Origin: a virus
IMG/VR virus record: IMGVR_UViG_3300045741_000414
Span: 1 to 25,470 of that record
Length of the DNA stretch: 25,470 nt
Reading direction: 5' to 3' (one strand)
In this document: piece after piece, positions 2,379 to 11,826 of the stretch
How positions within the stretch are numbered: the stretch's first letter is position 1
How the letters are laid out: each line of letters begins with the position of its first letter
Notes under the pieces: model-generated
The model's database searches: none
Told to the model about the DNA's origin: nothing
Seen by the model: only the letters and a program-made list of their open reading frames with translations
Translations under genes and position numbers: made by a program

Positions 2379-2522
2379 ATGAAGAACCCCGCCGCTGTCG
2401 CGCTCGGCAAACTCGCCGCCGCGAAACTGACCCCCGCCCAACGCCGGGCGCTCGCCGCCAAGGGAGGCCGAGCCGGCAAGGGTCGCCCGAAACCCCGACG
2501 CCCGAAAGGACGGACCGTATGA
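2379..2522 (+). CDS. short very basic peptide (47 aa)
   Basis: ATG 2379 to a TGA that overlaps the next ATG (2519). The product reads MKNPAAVALGKLAAAKLTPA and ends in a run rich in Gly, Arg, Lys and Pro (GRAGKGRPKPRRPKGR). Small phage and plasmid peptides beginning 'NPAAVALG(K/R)L' and ending in basic Gly/Arg/Pro tails are widespread; their function is unknown to me. The GRPK-type core resembles an AT-hook, so DNA minor-groove binding is possible but unproven. The upstream ribosome site is poor. The overlap with the lipoprotein gene and the strong GC third-position bias support it being real. Confidence 0.5.
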   Translation: MKNPAAVALGKLAAAKLTPAQRRALAAKGGRAGKGRPKPRRPKGRTV

Positions 2523-2884
2523 AACGCCTCGCCCTCCTCCTCGCCCTCGCTGGTTGCGCCACCGGTCCCAGCGAGCCCGACCCGACCGGGCGATGGCTCC
2601 TCGAGTCGGCGGTCTCGGCCAACCGGGCCATGACGCCAACGATCGCGGCGGAACTCACGATCGACGGGACCACGGCCATACTCCGGGAACAGATCGGGAG
2701 CGCGGCATTCTCCGTCATCATCGAAACCCGCGGGGTCGCCACCACGGATCCGGAATACGTCATGATCCAATGGACCGGCCTTGTCTCCACCGCGCTGCCG
2801 TCGCCCGTCATGTTGCGACGGGCCGGCGACCGGCTCGAGATCAATCAACCCCCTTTCGCCTGGACGTTCCGGAGGGGCCGATGA
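2519..2884 (+). CDS. predicted lipoprotein (121 aa)
   Basis: The N terminus MKRLALLLALAGC is a complete lipoprotein signal: two basic residues, a hydrophobic core and a lipobox L-A-G-C with the modified cysteine at residue 13. The mature part (about 108 residues) begins with a short polar linker (ATGPSEPDPTGRW) and then reads as a small beta-rich domain (TIAAELTIDGTTAIL, FSVIIETRGV, RLEINQPPFAWTFRR), resembling lipocalin-like 'GxW' folds. In a phage it could be a superinfection-exclusion or surface-altering lipoprotein. It does not have the short proline-rich form expected of an outer-membrane spanin. ATGA overlaps at both ends tie it to its neighbours. Confidence 0.65.
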   Translation: MKRLALLLALAGCATGPSEPDPTGRWLLESAVSANRAMTPTIAAELTIDGTTAILREQIGSAAFSVIIETRGVATTDPEYVMIQWTGLVSTALPSPVMLRRAGDRLEINQPPFAWTFRRGR

Positions 2885-2988: not shown

Positions 2989-3236
2989 CCGAGCCGCACC
3001 GATACGCCTGGGTTTCCCGTGGCGGATGTCAGATCGTCGGGACGCTCTATCGGGAGCACGCCGCCCGCGTCCTCGAAGCCTGGTGGGCCATCCAGCGGGA
3101 ACGGGAGTGGGACGCGGGCACGGTTGTGACGAGGGCGGTGCCGAGCCCGAACCGGCCGCCGGGAGCGGTGGCGCGGGGACTGCGGGGCGATGGGGAGGGC
3201 GATTCCCGGGAGGGTAGCCCGGGCGGTAGGATTTAG
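2985..3236 (+). CDS. hypothetical protein (83 aa)
   Basis: Unrecognised. The N-terminal half looks folded (YAWVSRGGCQIVGTLYREHA, VLEAWWAIQRERE), while the C-terminal third is Gly/Arg/Pro-rich and probably disordered. It starts with an ATGA overlap on the membrane-peptide gene. Its TAG stop overlaps by four bases (3233-3236) the TAA of the minus-strand structural operon, a direct tail-to-tail collision without room for a terminator. Two CCCGGG hexamers (3205-3210 and 3218-3223) can pair inside the last codons. Confidence 0.5.
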   Translation: MTEPHRYAWVSRGGCQIVGTLYREHAARVLEAWWAIQREREWDAGTVVTRAVPSPNRPPGAVARGLRGDGEGDSREGSPGGRI

Positions 3237-3847
3237 CGGACGATCAGAGCGCCGGCGACGGCCCCGACGACCAAGAAGGTGAGCCGGCCCGGAATCGGGA
3301 GGCCCAAGATCGTTTTGGGCGGCAGCGGGACGAGTGCCGCCAGTTGCCGGCGGAGGTCGGCGTTGACCCCGGCCAGACGGCCCGCATCCTGCCGGGCGAC
3401 GACCAAGGCCGAATCCAGGGCCCCGGCCCGTTCCCGTTCCCGCTCGAAGGCGACCCGCCAGCCGGCGCCGGACGCCTCGAGGCCGGCAATGGTCGCCACC
3501 CGGGCCGAATCCCGCGCAAGGAGCAACGGAACGCTATCCCCTGCCGTCTGCGCGGCCGCCAGGGCGACGGTCAGCCGGTGGGCGGCATTGGACGCCTGCC
3601 CCGCCCGTTCGACGGCGTGGCGCGCCTGCTGGGCGATACTATCGGCCTCGGAACGGAGCCGGGCCGCTTCCGCCTGCCGGGCGTCGAGGGCGGCGGAATC
3701 CGCGGCATGGGCCGCCTGGGCGGCCGCCGCCGCCGCTTCGACGGCGACGACCCGCCGGAGCCAATGGGTTCGGGCCGACCGATACCAGAGGCCCAGGCCG
3801 AGGCCGGCCACCGCAGCCCCGGCGCAGAACCAGCCGGCCGATGACAT
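3233..3847 (-). CDS. coiled-coil protein with membrane segments at both ends (204 aa)
   Basis: Last gene of the structural operon. A good GGAGG site precedes ATG 3847. A hydrophobic segment near residues 5-21 (WFCAGAAVAGLGLGLWY) is followed by about 150 residues of Ala/Arg/Glu-rich heptad-like helix with many AAR, DSA and LRSEAD segments. A second hydrophobic segment (LTFLVVGAVAGALIV) lies at the very C terminus. N-terminal anchor plus periplasmic coiled coil recalls inner-membrane spanins (Rz-like), but a second anchor is unusual. If the C terminus entered the outer envelope it could act as a one-piece spanin; otherwise it is a general membrane structural protein. Function is inference. Confidence 0.6.
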   Translation of the reverse strand: MSSAGWFCAGAAVAGLGLGLWYRSARTHWLRRVVAVEAAAAAAQAAHAADSAALDARQAEAARLRSEADSIAQQARHAVERAGQASNAAHRLTVALAAAQTAGDSVPLLLARDSARVATIAGLEASGAGWRVAFERERERAGALDSALVVARQDAGRLAGVNADLRRQLAALVPLPPKTILGLPIPGRLTFLVVGAVAGALIVR

Positions 3848-6125: not shown

Positions 6126-7496
6126 TTACCAGCTGATCACGACGGCATAGCCGGCGCCACCGAGGCCGCCCGCGCCACCCGTGCCGGGGTTCATCCCGAC
6201 TCCACCGCCACCGCCGCCACCGCCGCCACGACCACCCGCGCCGCCGGCCGCACCGTTCGTCGAGGCCGTGACCGTCGTACCACCACCACCACCACCCGCG
6301 CCGCCCTTGGTCGAGTCGCCCGCTGCACCGGCCGATCCAGCCGTTGGCGAGGCGCCATCCGTCCCGACCGCACCACCGCCGCCGACCGTATAGGAATCGG
6401 AGGCCCCGCCCGCGCCACCCGCGATAATCGCCGGCGTGGCATTGTGGCCGCCGCCCGATCCACCACCGCCGCCACCATAGACCGAACTAGCCCCGATCGA
6501 GGCCGCGACTGGTGTGGAGGCACTGCCGCCGCCGCCCGCGCCCCCGAACTCGGCGCAGTTCTGGTTGGTGGTGGGAACGGCGACCGTGCCCACGCCGCCT
6601 TCGCCCCCGCTCGACATCTGGGTGCCGGTCGCGATCGCATGCGGATAGGGACCACCGGGGACCCCGCCGGACGTCGTGCCAACGGCCCCGGCGCTCGCCG
6701 TTCCCCCGCCTCCGCCTCCGCCCGACGCGGCGGCTGAAATCGCGCCGCCGCGGCCCCCGCCGCCGCCGTAGGCGACCAGAATCGTCCCGAAGGACGTGTT
6801 CGCGCCAATGCCGCCGTCACCGCCCGCGGCACCGGCCACGCTCGCCGCGCCCGCGGCCCCACCGGCGCCGACCGTGACCGTGACGGTCGAACCGAGATCG
6901 GCCGCGACGAACGTCTCGCGGGCGAACGCGCCCCCGCCGCCCCCCGCGCCGCCCTTCGCGACTACTGCTGTCGCCAACGACGCCCCGCCCCCCCCACCGC
7001 CGCCGGCGCCCCAGAGCCGAACGAGCACGGCCTTCGGCGTAAACGCCGTCGGTTTGGTCCAGGTGTTCGCGCCGGTCGCCGTGAAGACCTGGACATCGAC
7101 CGGCCCAGCGCTGCCCGAGTAGACCGCGCCGCCCGCCGTGTAGTGGAACCAGACCCCTTCCCGGCAGACGAACTCCTCGCCCGCGAGGAGCGTGACCTTC
7201 TGCCATTCGTAGAGCGTAGCCGAAATATTCCGTTGGACCGTCACGTCGTTCGATGCGCTGGCGTGCCGGTTCCGGATGCTGATGTGCTTGATGTTCTTGA
7301 AATGATTCGCCGCCGGGGCCGCGACAATGTCGGTCGTCGTGGCCGTCGTGATTACGGCCTGTTCCGACACCAGCGTGGCGACCTGGGCTGACGGGGTCGT
7401 ATTGTCAACATCGGTCGAGGACACATCGACGACGATGTCCGCCGTCGAGGACGTAATGAGTTGGACCTTGTGCGTGGTCGCGGTCAGAGCTTGCAT
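6126..7496 (-). CDS. glycine-rich phage adhesin (456 aa)
   Basis: The N-terminal 130 or so residues form a beta domain (VQLITSSTADIVVDV, HISIRNRHASASNDVTVQR) containing 'GEEFVCREGVWFHYTAGG'. From 'VFTATGANTWTKP' onward the protein matches the layout of the glycine-rich phage adhesin domain: FT..G..TWTKP, then KAVLVRLWGAGGGGGGG, alternating polyglycine tracts with short variable segments, and a closing strand GYAVVISW. In the gp38-type adhesin of Salmonella phage S16 such glycine tracts form a polyglycine-II sandwich, with receptor-binding loops at the tips. The segments between the tracts (for example YPHAIATGTQM and PTTNQNCAEF) would be the receptor-determining loops. Probably the host-binding tip of a tail fibre. 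Confidence 0.75.
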   Translation of the reverse strand: MQALTATTHKVQLITSSTADIVVDVSSTDVDNTTPSAQVATLVSEQAVITTATTTDIVAAPAANHFKNIKHISIRNRHASASNDVTVQRNISATLYEWQKVTLLAGEEFVCREGVWFHYTAGGAVYSGSAGPVDVQVFTATGANTWTKPTAFTPKAVLVRLWGAGGGGGGGASLATAVVAKGGAGGGGGAFARETFVAADLGSTVTVTVGAGGAAGAASVAGAAGGDGGIGANTSFGTILVAYGGGGGRGGAISAAASGGGGGGGTASAGAVGTTSGGVPGGPYPHAIATGTQMSSGGEGGVGTVAVPTTNQNCAEFGGAGGGGSASTPVAASIGASSVYGGGGGGSGGGHNATPAIIAGGAGGASDSYTVGGGGAVGTDGASPTAGSAGAAGDSTKGGAGGGGGGTTVTASTNGAAGGAGGRGGGGGGGGGVGMNPGTGGAGGLGGAGYAVVISW

Positions 7497-7499
7497 GGG

Positions 7500-7733
7500 C
7501 TAGCCAATCGCTTTCACGGCCGGATTCGCGGCCGGCGCCACGTCCTGGAGATCGGTGGCTTCGATCACCACCGGCTGGGGCGCGATCCGCTTGACGGCCA
7601 CGAAGAGCAGGAAGCCGGCCCGTTCGGCCGCGACGAGCACCGACGCCTTCGCCACGGCCTCCTCGAGCGAATCGGCGGTGCCCGCGACGTAGCCGGTGCC
7701 CTCATTCAGGATGACGACAGTTTTCTCGGTCAT
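7500..7733 (-). CDS. hypothetical small protein (77 aa)
   Basis: Unrecognised. An AAGGAG site sits just upstream of ATG 7733. The protein has an alternating strand-helix-strand pattern (TVVILNEGTGYVAGTA, SLEEAVAKASVLVAAERAG, FLLFVAVKRIAPQPVVIEA), consistent with a small alpha/beta fold of about 60 residues and a flexible Ala/Pro tail. No cysteines, signal or membrane segment. Its place between two fibre-like genes suggests a fibre assembly chaperone or small virion part, but the sequence gives no direct proof. Confidence 0.55.
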   Translation of the reverse strand: MTEKTVVILNEGTGYVAGTADSLEEAVAKASVLVAAERAGFLLFVAVKRIAPQPVVIEATDLQDVAPAANPAVKAIG

Positions 7734-7745
7734 GATGCTTCTCCT

Positions 7746-8429
7746 TTACCAATAGGCCGCGTCGGTCGCGAGCGCCCAGGGGATTTCGCCCTTCATCGTA
7801 GCCAGCGCCGATTGGAGCGGCGCGACCCGAAAAGCCACTGCACTGATATCCCATCCGTTGGAACTGTCGCAGGACCAATCACAGGTCCGCGCCCCGGCGC
7901 TGCTTTGCTCCAACCATTCCATGGTCCCGCCGATCGTATCATCGCCGCCGGCGGTGAATCCCGTCCCTGGCGTATGGACCCCGCCATGGCCCGTGACGAC
8001 ACATAGAAGCAGACTGGCCGTCGTCGTCGTCACGGAGACGCTTGGCGTCGTCGTCGTGGCCGTCCGGGCATAGTTGGAGGTATCGAGGACGCCAGCCGGC
8101 ACCGTCCATCCGGTCCATTTGTCGAGCAAGAGCCCGCGCCAGTTCACCGAGGTCGAGAACGTCACGATGACCGTCGGGGTGCCACCGGTCGTCACCGTGC
8201 ATTGAAACCATTGCTGGTCCTGGTCGACGCCGGCGTCTTTGGCGCGGGTGGTCGTCCAGGTATTGCCCAGGTCATCCGTTACCGTGGAGATCGTATTGGC
8301 GCCGGCGCCCCACTCGACCCAGAGGGTCAGGAGGTCGCCGACCGACACCGCCGCCCCCGCCGTCACGACCGCGGTGCCGGCGCCGGCCGAATTGCCGAAC
8401 GTCCCAAGGGCTACCCGGGCGATCGCCAT
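7746..8429 (-). CDS. beta-rich tail/adhesin protein (227 aa)
   Basis: The N-terminal part is a recognisable jelly-roll-like pattern found in phage and bacterial surface proteins: 'GDLLTLWVEWG', 'ISTVTDDLGNTWTTTRAKDAG', 'QQWFQCTVTTGGTPTVIVTFSTSVNWRGLLLDKWTG'. The 'VTDxLGNTWT' turn and the Thr-rich strand 'TATTTTPSVSVTTTTASLLLCVVTGHGG' are typical. The C terminus continues with Trp-containing strands and a helix. It is likely a carbohydrate-facing module of a tail fibre or an associated virion protein. No catalytic residues can be picked out. It follows the secreted lectin-like gene by three bases. Confidence 0.6.
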   Translation of the reverse strand: MAIARVALGTFGNSAGAGTAVVTAGAAVSVGDLLTLWVEWGAGANTISTVTDDLGNTWTTTRAKDAGVDQDQQWFQCTVTTGGTPTVIVTFSTSVNWRGLLLDKWTGWTVPAGVLDTSNYARTATTTTPSVSVTTTTASLLLCVVTGHGGVHTPGTGFTAGGDDTIGGTMEWLEQSSAGARTCDWSCDSSNGWDISAVAFRVAPLQSALATMKGEIPWALATDAAYW

Positions 8430-8432
8430 GGT

Positions 8433-9503
8433 CTACCGAACCGGTCCAATGGGGGCCGTCGACGCCCGCACATTGTCGTAGTACATCGTGCCTACGCTCG
8501 CGGCGTTGGCCCAGTTCTCGATCCAGATGCCGCCGAGCGTGACCGATGCCTCGGCCGCGGATCGATAGAGCACCGTGGTATGTCGGCCCCGGAGGGTCGG
8601 GATGCTGGGACAGGCCAGCCCATCCGCCGCGCAGTCATCCAGCCAGAACTCGAAGAGGCCATCCGCCGCGCCCGGAGTGTTGAGCCGGACGTGCATTTCG
8701 ATGAAGTACCAATGGGTCGGCACGAGCGTGAGGTCCGGCGCGAGGTTACTACCCATCCAGGCGCTGGCTCCGCTCGGCAAATCCTGATGGAGGTACGGCA
8801 GACAAACGATCGACTCGTTGCCGAAATAGTTGTAGCAGAGGGCGACCATCTGCCCGGTGCCGACGCCGCGCGTGAAGTCGAACATCTTCTCATGGCCGCC
8901 GTCATAATCGGCTTGCGGCTGGAAGTAGAGGCGGAAATAGGCTTCGGTCAGTCCGGTCCGACTGAACCCATGCTCGGCCATGTTTCGGCCGCCGACACCC
9001 TGATGGAGCCCCGAGGTCGCCGCACAGTTCGACCGGAAGCCTTTTCCGCCACAGACGGCCGCGCCGGCTGGGGTAATGGGATTGGCATAAATCGTCCCGC
9101 ACCAGCCATGCGTTTGCAGGAGGCCGCCCGAGGCGTTCGCCGCATCGCAATCCTTGCTATACCAACTCCCCGACTCGAAATCATCGCAGAGGAGGGTGGC
9201 GGGATCGGTTCCGCATCCCGCTTCGGCCGCGTTGAGATACATCGATCCGGTCGCGGGCGGGGGCGCGGGAGGGGGAGGCGGCGCTGGTGGAGGCGGTGGC
9301 GTCGGAGCTGGAGGCGGGATCGTCCGGAACGTCACCAGCGCCCGCGCTTCGGCGAGCCACCGCTTGATGAGCGTCGAGCTCGTCCGCGTCCGCGCCGAAT
9401 CGATTTTGACCACGGCTTTGGCGAGCGAGTCGGGACTCGGCTGCTGGGCCGCCAGCCCGAGACTGTTGAGCGCGAGGACGACGGCGAGAAGAAGCGCTCG
9501 CAT
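8433..9503 (-). CDS. secreted Cys-rich lectin-like protein (356 aa)
   Basis: The start is ATG 9503, overlapping the previous stop (TGATG); the frame is open farther upstream but only as a shadow of the previous gene. Residues 1-19 form a Sec signal peptide (MRALLLAVVLALNSLGLAA, cleavage after AxA-like LAA). Then follow a helical stretch, a proline linker (about residues 63-84) and a globular C-terminal domain containing ten cysteines, the first at residue 97. The domain has the pattern of LamG/concanavalin-like or polysaccharide-lyase-like jelly rolls: LCDDFESGSW, EAYFRLYFQP, HEKMFDFTRG, THWYFIEMHVRLN, ADGLFEFWLDDC, YYDNVRAST. An even number of cysteines plus export suggests a disulfide-bonded protein outside the cytoplasm. 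A signal peptide is unusual for a virion adhesin. Confidence 0.7.
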   Translation of the reverse strand: MRALLLAVVLALNSLGLAAQQPSPDSLAKAVVKIDSARTRTSSTLIKRWLAEARALVTFRTIPPPAPTPPPPPAPPPPPAPPPATGSMYLNAAEAGCGTDPATLLCDDFESGSWYSKDCDAANASGGLLQTHGWCGTIYANPITPAGAAVCGGKGFRSNCAATSGLHQGVGGRNMAEHGFSRTGLTEAYFRLYFQPQADYDGGHEKMFDFTRGVGTGQMVALCYNYFGNESIVCLPYLHQDLPSGASAWMGSNLAPDLTLVPTHWYFIEMHVRLNTPGAADGLFEFWLDDCAADGLACPSIPTLRGRHTTVLYRSAAEASVTLGGIWIENWANAASVGTMYYDNVRASTAPIGPVR

Positions 9504-9844
9504 CACGCCCCCTGCACGTTCAGGGTGAAGACCGTATTCACCGGCAAGTTGGCCGGGAGTTCGAGCAGAATCTCGTTGGCCGCGAGCGTCGGATGGCCAT
9601 CCTGCTGCCGCCAGGGCGATACGCTCAAGCCCGTCGGCAGACCCGACACAAACGCCACCGGCAGACTTTTGGCCGCCCTCCGGCCGAGGCCCGTCAGCAC
9701 ATCGACGAACAGATGGATGGACCCACCGGGCGACAGATTGACCGGGCCCGCCGGCGTCACGATGGTGTCGATGACGGTATCGGTCGGCGGCGGGATATCC
9801 GCCGGGGCGACCACGAACACTTTGACCTGCGCGATCAGACTCAT
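9503..9844 (-). CDS. hypothetical beta-rich protein (113 aa)
   Basis: Start set at ATG 9844 because it overlaps the stop of the HExxH gene (ATGA); the longer frame from 10129 only shadows that gene. The product (MSLIAQVKVFVVAPADIPPP, then VNLSPGGSIHLFVDVLTGLG, then EILLELPANLPVNTVFTLNV) looks like one beta sandwich with a proline-rich edge. No family is recognised. It is translationally coupled to the secreted lectin-like gene after it (TGATG), so the two products may act together or be made in equal amounts. Confidence 0.5.
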   Translation of the reverse strand: MSLIAQVKVFVVAPADIPPPTDTVIDTIVTPAGPVNLSPGGSIHLFVDVLTGLGRRAAKSLPVAFVSGLPTGLSVSPWRQQDGHPTLAANEILLELPANLPVNTVFTLNVQGA

Positions 9845-10188
9845 ACATTTTCCTCGAATTGGGGGTAGGCCGCCCCGGCGAAGTCGCGCACGGTCGGCTG
9901 TTCCTTCGCGTGCGCTTGCTTCTCCATCCAGATCCAGCCGAAACACAAGACATACAGCGGCAGGTAGAACACGCCGAACATACGGACCTGATAGATATGC
10001 GTTCCTTCGTGCCGCAAGGTCGGCGCGTTGATCGGCGGCTGGCCTGCCTTTCGGTCGATGCGGTCGTCGTGCAAAGTTCGGTTGATCGAGGGCCACCAGC
10101 CCGTCATCTCGACGACGCGGATTGGCCAAGGGTCCCAGCCCTCGCCCGGATGCCAGCGCACCCGATAGGTACCTAACGTCGTCGTCAT
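9841..10188 (-). CDS. HExxH putative zinc metallopeptidase-like protein (115 aa)
   Basis: Start at ATG 10188, overlapping the previous gene's TGA (ATGA). Residues 60-64 are H-E-G-T-H, a perfect HExxH zinc-peptidase motif, embedded in 'PTLRHEGTHIYQVRMFGVFYLPLYVL'. This arrangement, HExxH then 'xxQxRxxGxxYLPxY' and a hydrophobic segment (YVLCFGWIWM), is seen in small bacterial and phage proteins of the minigluzincin/eCIS-core-like kind. A third zinc ligand is not obvious. Placed between the coiled-coil membrane gene and the adhesin set, it might cleave a peptide or envelope protein during lysis or entry, or be a degenerate structural domain. The catalytic role is inference from the motif alone. 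Confidence 0.55.
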   Translation of the reverse strand: MTTTLGTYRVRWHPGEGWDPWPIRVVEMTGWWPSINRTLHDDRIDRKAGQPPINAPTLRHEGTHIYQVRMFGVFYLPLYVLCFGWIWMEKQAHAKEQPTVRDFAGAAYPQFEENV

Positions 10189-10580
10189 GACCCGCCTCGC
10201 CGTTTCACCCATTTGTCATGATCGACCAGTTGCGCTTGAAGCTCCCGAATTGCCGTCTTCAGGTCGGCAATCTCTCCGGCCAGGCTGCCGAGGTCATGCG
10301 ACAAGTTCCGAACTTGATCGCTGCCGTTCAATTTAAGGTCTGAGATCAGCGTTGAATCGGTCGCATTCCGGTGCTCGACGCCCGAGAGGCGATTCTCCAT
10401 TTTCGCGTATAGCAACGTGGCCGCGATGGCGAGCCCGAGCCCCGTGCCGAGAATCCACCGCAGCAGTGTCTGCGCCTGCCGCCCCAACATCAGTTGCAGG
10501 TCGGTGACGGTGAGGACTTCGATCTCCTCGCCGCTAACCGTCTTCACCCGATGGTTGGCCCCATCCGACCCCGGAGTCAT
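10185..10580 (-). CDS. membrane-anchored coiled-coil protein, spanin-like (131 aa)
   Basis: Residues 1-40 are soluble and would be cytoplasmic. A transmembrane segment follows (about 41-59, WILGTGLGLAIAATLLYAK), then a long heptad-like helix (ENRLSGVEHRNATDSTLI, VRNLSHDLGSLAGEIADLKT, AIRELQAQL) and a basic tail. This N-in, coiled-coil-out layout directly after a holin-like gene and near the endolysin is what one expects of an inner-membrane spanin (Rz-like) or a holin accessory protein. No partner lipoprotein is embedded in or next to it; the only lipoprotein in the window lies in the plus-strand cluster at 2519. Confidence 0.6.
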   Translation of the reverse strand: MTPGSDGANHRVKTVSGEEIEVLTVTDLQLMLGRQAQTLLRWILGTGLGLAIAATLLYAKMENRLSGVEHRNATDSTLISDLKLNGSDQVRNLSHDLGSLAGEIADLKTAIRELQAQLVDHDKWVKRRGGS

Positions 10581-10586
10581 CGGTCC

Positions 10587-10892
10587 TTACCCGTTCGCGG
10601 GCGGCTGGAGTTTCTTCGTCTGGTCGCCCAGATGGAAGACGTAGCTCAACCCGGCACTGGCGAGCGCCGCCATATCGGCCTGGCTCAACATCGTCGGATC
10701 AGCGACCGAGAGCACGACGCCGAGTTTCACGGTCGCGACCGTCAGCCCATAGCTCAAGACGCCGACCAGAATCCGGGTCACGGGCGCCGGGAGCTTCTGG
10801 AGCAGGGCCACCGCCTTCTGGAAATACTCGTAGATCAGGTTCGTCAGCGCCGCGACGATCACGGGCAGCAACATCGTCAACAGGTCTTTCAT
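10587..10892 (-). CDS. holin-like protein (101 aa)
   Basis: Start at ATG 10892, overlapping the previous stop (ATGA). The protein begins MKDLLTMLLPVIVAALTNLI, has a short amphipathic loop (YEYFQKAVALLQKLPAPVT) and a second hydrophobic stretch (RILVGVLSYGLTVATVKLGVVLSV), then a polar tail that ends with Lys residues (DQTKKLQPPANG). Two membrane segments in about 100 residues next to an endolysin gene is the usual look of a phage holin, which forms holes in the inner membrane to release or trigger the lysin. No exact holin family is recognised. Confidence 0.6.
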   Translation of the reverse strand: MKDLLTMLLPVIVAALTNLIYEYFQKAVALLQKLPAPVTRILVGVLSYGLTVATVKLGVVLSVADPTMLSQADMAALASAGLSYVFHLGDQTKKLQPPANG

Positions 10893-11347
10893 TTGTCCGA
10901 TTCCTCCGTCGAAGGTTTCCCGCCACGTCCGACCATCTTCCCGACCCCTGACCCAATGGCGCCCCAGACGCCGCCGGCCGTCGCCCGGCCCAACGTCTTG
11001 GGGGCCACGAGGAGCGAGGCCCGCAAGAACTCTAGGAGGGTCGCCCATGCGCTATGATGATCGGCCGGCATCGGCCAATAGCCGATCTCTTGGCCCATCT
11101 CGACCGTCGCCCGGCTAGCAATCAGCAGGAGGCCAAGGAAGAACGCCGAGTCCTCAATCATCCGGCTCGCCCCGCCCCGGAGTGGGGAGCCGTATTTCGC
11201 CCCGTCAATCCGGGCCTGGGTTTCGGCCGCCTTGGCTCGGACGGTATCGAGTTCCGACATGAGCCGTACCTCGTCCTCGGACAAGCGCCGGGCTTCCTGA
11301 CTTGGGGTCAGGCTGGCGGTCGGGACGGGGGCGGGCGTCGGCTCCAT
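10889..11347 (-). CDS. phage membrane protein of the lysis region (152 aa)
   Basis: Start set at ATG 11347, just after the endolysin stop; the longer frame from 11485 reads back through the endolysin gene. The N-terminal third is Pro/Ser/Thr-rich followed by a charged helix (EDEVRLMSELDTVRAKAAETQARID). The C-terminal half has two moderately hydrophobic helices (AFFLGLLLIASRATVEMG and ATLLEFLRASLLVAP) and a Gly-rich basic end. It might be a holin, antiholin or membrane-associated assembly factor. Position between endolysin and holin-like genes argues for a lysis role. Confidence 0.5.
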   Translation of the reverse strand: MEPTPAPVPTASLTPSQEARRLSEDEVRLMSELDTVRAKAAETQARIDGAKYGSPLRGGASRMIEDSAFFLGLLLIASRATVEMGQEIGYWPMPADHHSAWATLLEFLRASLLVAPKTLGRATAGGVWGAIGSGVGKMVGRGGKPSTEESDK

Positions 11348-11351
11348 CGGC

Positions 11352-11822
11352 TCACCCAGCGGGAGGGGTATAGGGAAGATACTCAGTCCCCGTCGCCGTC
11401 CGAACTGCCCTGATCGTTTGGTGCCTGTTGGTCGGCTTGGACCGGTAGCCGACGTGAACCCAGGCCGGGTTAGCGTCGTCGCCAAACTCCCAGATCAGTT
11501 GATCGAAGTCGAGATGATGGCGACACCAGAGGAAGAGATCGGCGTTGCTGACCTTCATCCCTTCCATGTCAATCGCCCGGCCGTTGACGTGATCCGAGGT
11601 CGGCGACCCGCCGATCGCCCGGTTGAGCGCCGGCGACCGATAGAAGCTCGTAATCCGGAGGGGCCCGCAGGCGGTTCGGGCCGGCTCGAAGCACTCGGCC
11701 GCGACGAGGCGCATATTGGCGAGTTCATCCGGACTAGGCGTATTGTCGATCCCACGCCGGATTGCCGTCGGGGAACTGGTTGCCTCCTCATAGGTGCAAT
11801 GGGCGGAAATCGGCGGGGGCAT
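11352..11822 (-). CDS. endolysin, M15-family peptidase (156 aa)
   Basis: Start at ATG 11822, four bases after the hub gene's stop; upstream in-frame codons lie inside that gene. The protein is a compact Peptidase_M15_3 domain: an N-terminal helix with 'CTYEEATSSPTAIRRGIDNT' (equivalent to the F-x-x-x-E-x-x-x-S-x-T-A segment), 'LRITSFYRSPALNRAIGG', then 'SDHVNGRAID' giving zinc ligands H78 and D85, a likely catalytic acid at E112 (QLIWEF) and the third ligand H123 in 'WVHVGY'. All active-site residues expected for D-Ala-type or L-Ala-D-Glu peptidases are present. It should cut peptide bonds in peptidoglycan during lysis. There is no signal peptide, so it needs the neighbouring holin-like protein to cross the membrane. 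Confidence 0.88.
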   Translation of the reverse strand: MPPPISAHCTYEEATSSPTAIRRGIDNTPSPDELANMRLVAAECFEPARTACGPLRITSFYRSPALNRAIGGSPTSDHVNGRAIDMEGMKVSNADLFLWCRHHLDFDQLIWEFGDDANPAWVHVGYRSKPTNRHQTIRAVRTATGTEYLPYTPPAG

Positions 11823-11826
11823 GCTG

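Follow-up and report, generated by a model that had tools for sequence, protein, structure and literature searches.

A late-operon phage gene for a predicted Sec-exported, cysteine-rich protein with a PL14-like jelly roll

Introduction

Polysaccharide lyases of families PL7, PL14, PL18 and PL36 share a jelly roll whose inner sheet carries the catalytic cleft (PMC8618178). The protein considered here is encoded in a complete IMG/VR virus record of 25,470 bp from a phage in an environmental sample (the window). Its likeness to PL14 (PF21294; AkAly30, 5gmt, and Chlorella virus vAL-1, 3gne) and PL36 (Aly36B) lies in the predicted jelly roll, in a strand of W-x3-E-x5-LNTPG type and in profile similarity. 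It differs from these enzymes in scoring below the Pfam cut-off, in not retaining SxR and YxY, in its richness in cysteine, in the helix and proline linker that precede the domain, and in being the product of a phage late-operon gene. A second set for comparison is a group of myxobacterial ‘CEDFE’ proteins (L021, L022, L024 and L026, labelled PL14 by Pfam), with which it shares predicted export and a W-E-N-[TD] strand and, for L022, L024 and L026, likeness to the start motif LxCEDFE; these, however, are cellular, lipid-anchored or otherwise exported, and have kept YxY.

From the phage side, free depolymerases and tail-spike lyases are pertinent, since they too are late proteins and their target is polysaccharide on the host surface. 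Most known examples are either beta-helix parts of the virion or soluble proteins that have no Sec signal, whereas the window protein has a predicted Sec signal and no PHROG match at E 0.1. Proteins of the Cor, Llp and Bor types are small exported phage proteins that act at the host envelope; the window protein differs in having no lipobox, in its much larger jelly-roll domain and in its late-operon position. Carbohydrate-active folds are also present in uncultured soil phages as auxiliary CAZymes, in an account with no mention of signal peptides or secretion (PMC6460857), and in comparison with these the window protein is without the PL14 catalytic set.

The gene and its setting

The gene and those neighbours to which reference is made below are:

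6126..7496, minus strand: glycine-rich fibre-like protein, same operon (Pfam Gly_rich_2; similarity to L011)
7746..8429, minus strand: downstream gene, 227 aa (its relative adjoins the window-protein relative in phage contig L008)
8433..9503, minus strand: gene for the 356-aa predicted exported protein (ATG 9503, stop 8433; homology in the minus-strand frame)
9503..9841, minus strand: upstream gene, 112 aa (TGATG overlap with the window gene)
11352..11825, minus strand: M15 endolysin, same operon (Pfam PF08291, E 7.8e-17; PHROG 894, endolysin)

The start codon (9503), preceded by a GGGGG tract, overlaps the TGA of the upstream gene in the sequence TGATG. Such stop/start overlap is a common mark of translational coupling, and coupling to the upstream gene is likely here. 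Family searches (Pfam, PHROG) with the 112-aa product gave nothing above any cut-off. The neighbour gene in L008 matches the 227-aa gene at E 6e-9, and the L008 copy has a signal peptide; a candidate relative in L082 was dropped when checking did not confirm it. A 609-aa open frame on the plus strand (8202-10031) was rejected as a real gene, all homology being in the minus-strand frame, and is a chance product of G+C-rich DNA.

A previous sequence-only reading had located the gene in a tail operon. That placement holds and can be made more precise, since a lambda-type portal (Pfam, 1e-95), a capsid protein with a protease part (PHROG 617, 5e-114), a tape measure protein (a weak PHROG match) and the M15 endolysin are on the same strand, with the gene between lysis and fibre genes. 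From right to left on the minus strand the order is portal, capsid, tape measure, M15 endolysin and small membrane-segment proteins, then the 112-aa coupled gene, the window gene, the 227-aa gene and the glycine-rich fibre-like protein. The small membrane-segment proteins found no match in family searches, and their resemblance to a lysis set is our own reading. The same earlier account proposed action near lysis, with which a gene beside lysis genes fits, the evidence for that timing being one of position.

Two other minus-strand products deserve mention in their own right. One (9841-10191, about 116 aa), two genes before the window gene, has a membrane segment after an HExxH motif (RHEGTHIYQ) and is metallopeptidase-like, with no Pfam match. 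The other (3233-3847, 204 aa), with a hydrophobic segment at either end and an Ala-rich coiled coil in between, is possibly spanin-like.

Export signal

9447..9503, minus strand: predicted Sec signal peptide, about aa 1-19, MRALLLAVVLALNSLGLAA (rule-based score; export-type N-termini in relatives)

After MRALLLAVVLALNSLGLAA comes the predicted cleavage and then QQ. The rule applied combines charge (a positive n-region), a hydrophobic core and an AxA-like cleavage site, and is passed by two of 31 candidate window genes, the other being a small lipoprotein gene (2519-2884, plus strand), and by 60 of 5000 shuffled versions of the window protein (1.2%). No second transmembrane stretch is present, the highest later 19-aa hydropathy being 0.88, and the n-region, core, cleavage site and freedom from a later transmembrane helix are together those of a type I Sec signal. 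There is no lipobox (the first cysteine is residue 97), and hence not the lipobox cysteine after the h-region that marks lipoproteins of the superinfection-exclusion type; a C-terminal anchor is likewise absent. The signal peptide proposed from the letters of the DNA is thus upheld by rule-based prediction, and the relatives described below, a bacterial lipoprotein among them, also have export-type N-termini. These predicted N-termini are a stronger argument for export than the signal rule applied to the window protein on its own. Export is well supported by computation, and would be expected in the real host.

The small lipoprotein gene at 2519-2884, on the strand opposite to the window gene, encodes 121 aa with a lipobox (MKRLALLLALAGC) and is a candidate phage lipoprotein, with no family match.

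Domain layout and fold

Beyond the signal peptide the protein is laid out as follows:

9318..9446, minus strand: charged spacer, aa 20-62, probably helical (sequence)
9249..9317, minus strand: proline-rich linker, about aa 63-85 (sequence)
8436..9245, minus strand: C-terminal domain, aa 87-356, predicted PL14/PL36-type jelly roll (ConA-like), Cys-rich (AF2, Foldseek, hhalign, relatives, motif check)
9186..9215, minus strand: invariant cysteine pair C97 and C106, with motif LLCDDFE (alignment of five sequences)
9024..9053, minus strand: invariant cysteine pair C151 and C160 (alignment of five sequences)
8667..8714, minus strand: family signature strand, around aa 264-279, THWYFIEMHVRLNTPG (basis of both motif scans)
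8610..8633, minus strand: invariant cysteine pair C291 and C298 (alignment of five sequences)

A search for the motif W-L-A-[DE]-A-R-A-L of the spacer (aa 20-62) yielded only unrelated proteins and no similar module. The proline linker of the earlier account is present, the proline run being at about aa 63-83. All ten cysteines (97, 106, 119, 135, 151, 160, 223, 234, 291 and 298) are in this domain of 270 aa, with other window genes encoding 0-4 each; the earlier count is therefore correct, and six of the ten are invariant among five divergent sequences. The protein is probably disulfide-bonded. Disulfide formation as the sole and general reason for export was considered and dropped, the domain of an exported relative, L082, having no cysteine. 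In the signature strand W and E are invariant, and N, T, P and G nearly so, in an alignment of 11 sequences.

AlphaFold2 models are of moderate confidence, with pLDDT 52 and pTM 0.61 from a 5-sequence alignment, and pLDDT 64 and pTM 0.72 from the 11-sequence alignment. With both, the best Foldseek matches in the PDB are the PL14 alginate lyase 5gmt, the PL36 enzyme Aly36B and PL14 vAL-1; for the 11-sequence model E ranges from 1.8e-9 (5gmt) to 8.6e-7 and TM from 0.50 to 0.58. Comparison by hhalign, whose E-values each refer to one comparison of small alignments, gave a probability of 97.8% (E 9e-13) with PL14-Pfam proteins of Myxococcota, and 99.2% (E 6e-20) with the myxobacterial ‘CEDFE’ exported proteins and lipoproteins. 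A beta-jelly-roll of PL14/PL36 type is thus well supported by computation as the predicted fold, and the structure prediction that had been suggested as a check agrees with the earlier description ‘lectin-like’ as regards fold.

Close relatives

Searches with the single protein of viral contigs, genome contigs, and phage and plasmid records gave no relatives, and a capsid-protein scan of viral contigs found nothing. A scan of viral contigs with a hand-made motif, W-Y-x-[ILV]-E-x-[HR]-V-[KR]-L-N, found L002/L009 and the more distant L003 (identical to L004 and L007), to which alignment searches added L008 and L011 from phage contigs and the bacterial L010. The window protein (P0001) is 32% identical to the L002 protein over 322 columns (E 9e-39), and its identity to the proteins of phage contigs L009, L008 and L011 is 31-37%. 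These three records are phages, as is evident from a terminase and head-tail adaptor in L008, a tyrosine-type integrase and endolysin in L009 and a gpJ-type tail protein in L011. Their proteins, for which the start codon had to be picked within the open frame, have hydrophobic export-type N-termini that differ in sequence from one another. The L008 and L011 proteins end in a hydrophobic tail, but no NCBIfam sorting-signal model matches these tails and anchoring is therefore only suggested by sequence.

The bacterial relative, on a Kofleriaceae chromosome (L010:3682-4764), is a lipoprotein with the lipobox MVAGARSLRWLVVVTLAMGC and 38% identity to the phage domain; of 379 Myxococcota genomes searched at E 1e-10, just one had the close family. 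Myxobacterial lipoproteins being the nearest cellular relatives, the window gene might be thought a bacterial surface-protein gene of recent capture and without function for the phage. This is highly improbable, as the local G+C is 0.65, like that of the window elsewhere, the gene tightly overlaps the one upstream, and independent phages repeatedly have relatives next to tail, portal or lysis genes.

The same bacterial relatives, as surface lipoproteins, have a bearing on another possibility, namely a lysogenic-conversion or superinfection-exclusion factor, expressed from the prophage or early, that covers surface glycan against related phages. Export combined with a glycan-type fold would suit such a role, as would the related gene in the integrase-containing L009 record and tails in L008 and L011 that could anchor. 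The gene is, however, coupled within a late operon, where a consensus scan of the minus strand from 7000 to 11500 (weak evidence) found no promoter of its own; the window yielded neither an integrase nor a repressor, and the protein has neither lipobox nor anchor. We regard this role as rather unlikely. The protein had no match in PADLOC or among defence families.

Catalytic residues

The catalytic set of PL14, as in vAL-1 and AkAly30, consists of the Lys in GGKLPG together with SxR and YxY on the inner sheet. Against Pfam PL14 (PF21294) the window protein scores 13.5 bits, the cut-off being 27, and weak matches are given by three of five family members, with a best E of 1.7e-4. This sub-threshold match is the only one in Pfam; a known tail fibre, spike or depolymerase family was matched in neither PHROG nor Pfam. 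The protein is filed as PL14-like and not as PL14. In a joint alignment, L017-L020 and the phage protein L089 retain Lys, SxR and YxY; the window protein, L008-L011, L003, L082, L084 and L090 are without the full set, an outcome that is alignment-dependent. The window protein lacks SxR and, within YxY, the first Tyr; the last Tyr is retained as Tyr237. Its Lys206 is aligned by hhalign with the PL14 lysine, a placement that is inconsistent between alignments.

An active exported lyase or depolymerase whose active site has diverged, thinning capsule or exopolysaccharide before lysis so that progeny spread, would accord with a fold nearest to that of alginate lyases, and with the pairing of Lys206 and the retention of Tyr237. 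It would also accord with the features of L089 (5292-6758), a phage-encoded protein with a signal peptide, the full PL14 set (GGKLPG, SxR and YxY) and a score above the Pfam cut-off, encoded near a lambda-type tail gene. L089 is a probable exported lyase on sequence grounds, and since it combines the full set with a signal peptide, exported phage enzymes of PL14 type probably exist. For the window protein itself we hold this reading to be unlikely: beyond the residues missing from it, the uncertain place of Lys206 and the low Pfam score, its four close relatives have no common replacement set. The earlier suggestion that it cuts a polysaccharide is accordingly weakened by loss of the Lys, SxR and YxY set from all five. 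Cutting by PL14 chemistry appears unlikely because the remaining PL14 residues, SxR and YxY, are lost, and glycan binding is the simpler guess, although absence of these residues would be compatible with another active site.

Wider survey of phage PL14-like proteins

A second scan, with W-x3-E-x2-[VIM]-x-L-N-T-P-G, gave 14 stretches, and from these, the first scan and the alignment searches 11 distinct proteins of phage contigs with readable N-termini could be assembled (window, L008, L009, L011, L003, L082, L084, L085, L086, L089 and L090), these being related to one another and hence not independent. Export-type N-termini are found in 10 of the 11. When a suitable start is chosen, eight satisfy the strict rule; the signals of L084 and L090, though plainly hydrophobic, narrowly fail on the charge or cleavage term, and L086 clearly fails, with no signal peptide. 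Among other ORFs of at least 150 aa in the surveyed loci, eight of 83 pass, five of them being fibre-like neighbours in L008, L011, L082 (two) and L085. Phage genes are present in L082, L089, L090 and L084. IMG/VR may contain host DNA, and L085, with choice-of-anchor domains, is the most doubtful.

Attention is drawn to runs of fibre-like genes (Fn3-type, PL14-like and others), each with its own signal peptide, at L082:4022-8629, L008:5864-11194, L011:8502-11128 and L085:10-3397, in contigs that also encode terminase, portal, capsid or tail proteins, L085 being only doubtfully phage. The sole signal-less PL14-like protein from a phage contig, L086 (4088-6523), retains YxY and runs on into Fn3 and other domains, and because of these features it may be a true virion fibre.

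L086 is also relevant to whether the window protein is itself a virion part, such as a tip of a fibre or a decoration, with a hydrophobic N-terminus that either does not serve export or serves an unusual assembly route. Its gene has fibre-like neighbours, and ConA-like folds often occur in tail fibres and in the decorations of capsids, with many such matches in the viral structure library. But tailed virions assemble in the cytoplasm, and an exported protein would be lost to that assembly. Export-type N-termini are, moreover, kept in 10 of 11 proteins with a different signal sequence each time, as expected under export, where only signal function is conserved, and the conservation of cysteine pairs speaks for a compartment that is oxidising. 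A virion role is very unlikely on this evidence.

A proposed mode of action

The reading that we favour, with moderate confidence, is of a late-expressed, Sec-exported glycan-binding protein that acts at the host envelope around lysis. Computation supports the gene, its signal peptide, the domain fold, the invariant cysteines, the exported relatives, the loss of PL14 residues and the late-operon position. As to actual export, disulfides, glycan binding, timing and benefit to the phage, we infer the following course. The protein would be made from the late transcript, with translation coupled to that of the preceding gene, and exported late in infection by the host Sec system, signal peptidase removing about 19 residues. 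Its domain would fold outside the cytoplasm, with at least three disulfides made by host oxidising machinery, and the helical segment and proline linker would keep it at a distance from its partner or surface. The groove of the jelly roll, where enzymes of PL14/PL36 hold acidic polysaccharide, would bind a glycan of the host envelope or exopolysaccharide. The protein would accumulate before lysis and be set free together with progeny, and the benefit may be in masking or displacing glycans that would trap these progeny or readmit related phages. If the host has two membranes, the protein, which has neither lipobox nor anchor, could remain in the periplasm up to lysis, and that possible retention weakens a role at the outer surface before then.

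Implications

The fold is known, and so is export of phage accessory proteins; it is unusual to find the two combined in the late fibre regions of several unrelated phages, and no description of a class of exported PL14-like phage proteins was found in the literature searched. Adhesin-like folds encoded in the tail regions of uncultured phages are usually assumed to be virion parts. Sec signals on such genes in several unrelated phage contigs point instead to action outside the cytoplasm and off the particle. We put forward, tentatively, that uncultured tailed phages have a class of Sec-exported, fibre-like late genes whose non-virion products remodel the glycan surface of the host before lysis. 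Its members, each provided with a signal peptide of its own, might include jelly rolls of PL14-like type as well as Fn3-type and other beta proteins, and would conceivably form a phage-encoded, extracellular second adhesin set beside the virion's own. If so, remodelling of surface glycans during infection would be a commoner phage strategy than annotation implies, and the automatic labels ‘tail fibre’ and ‘lyase’ would be wrong for this exported class.
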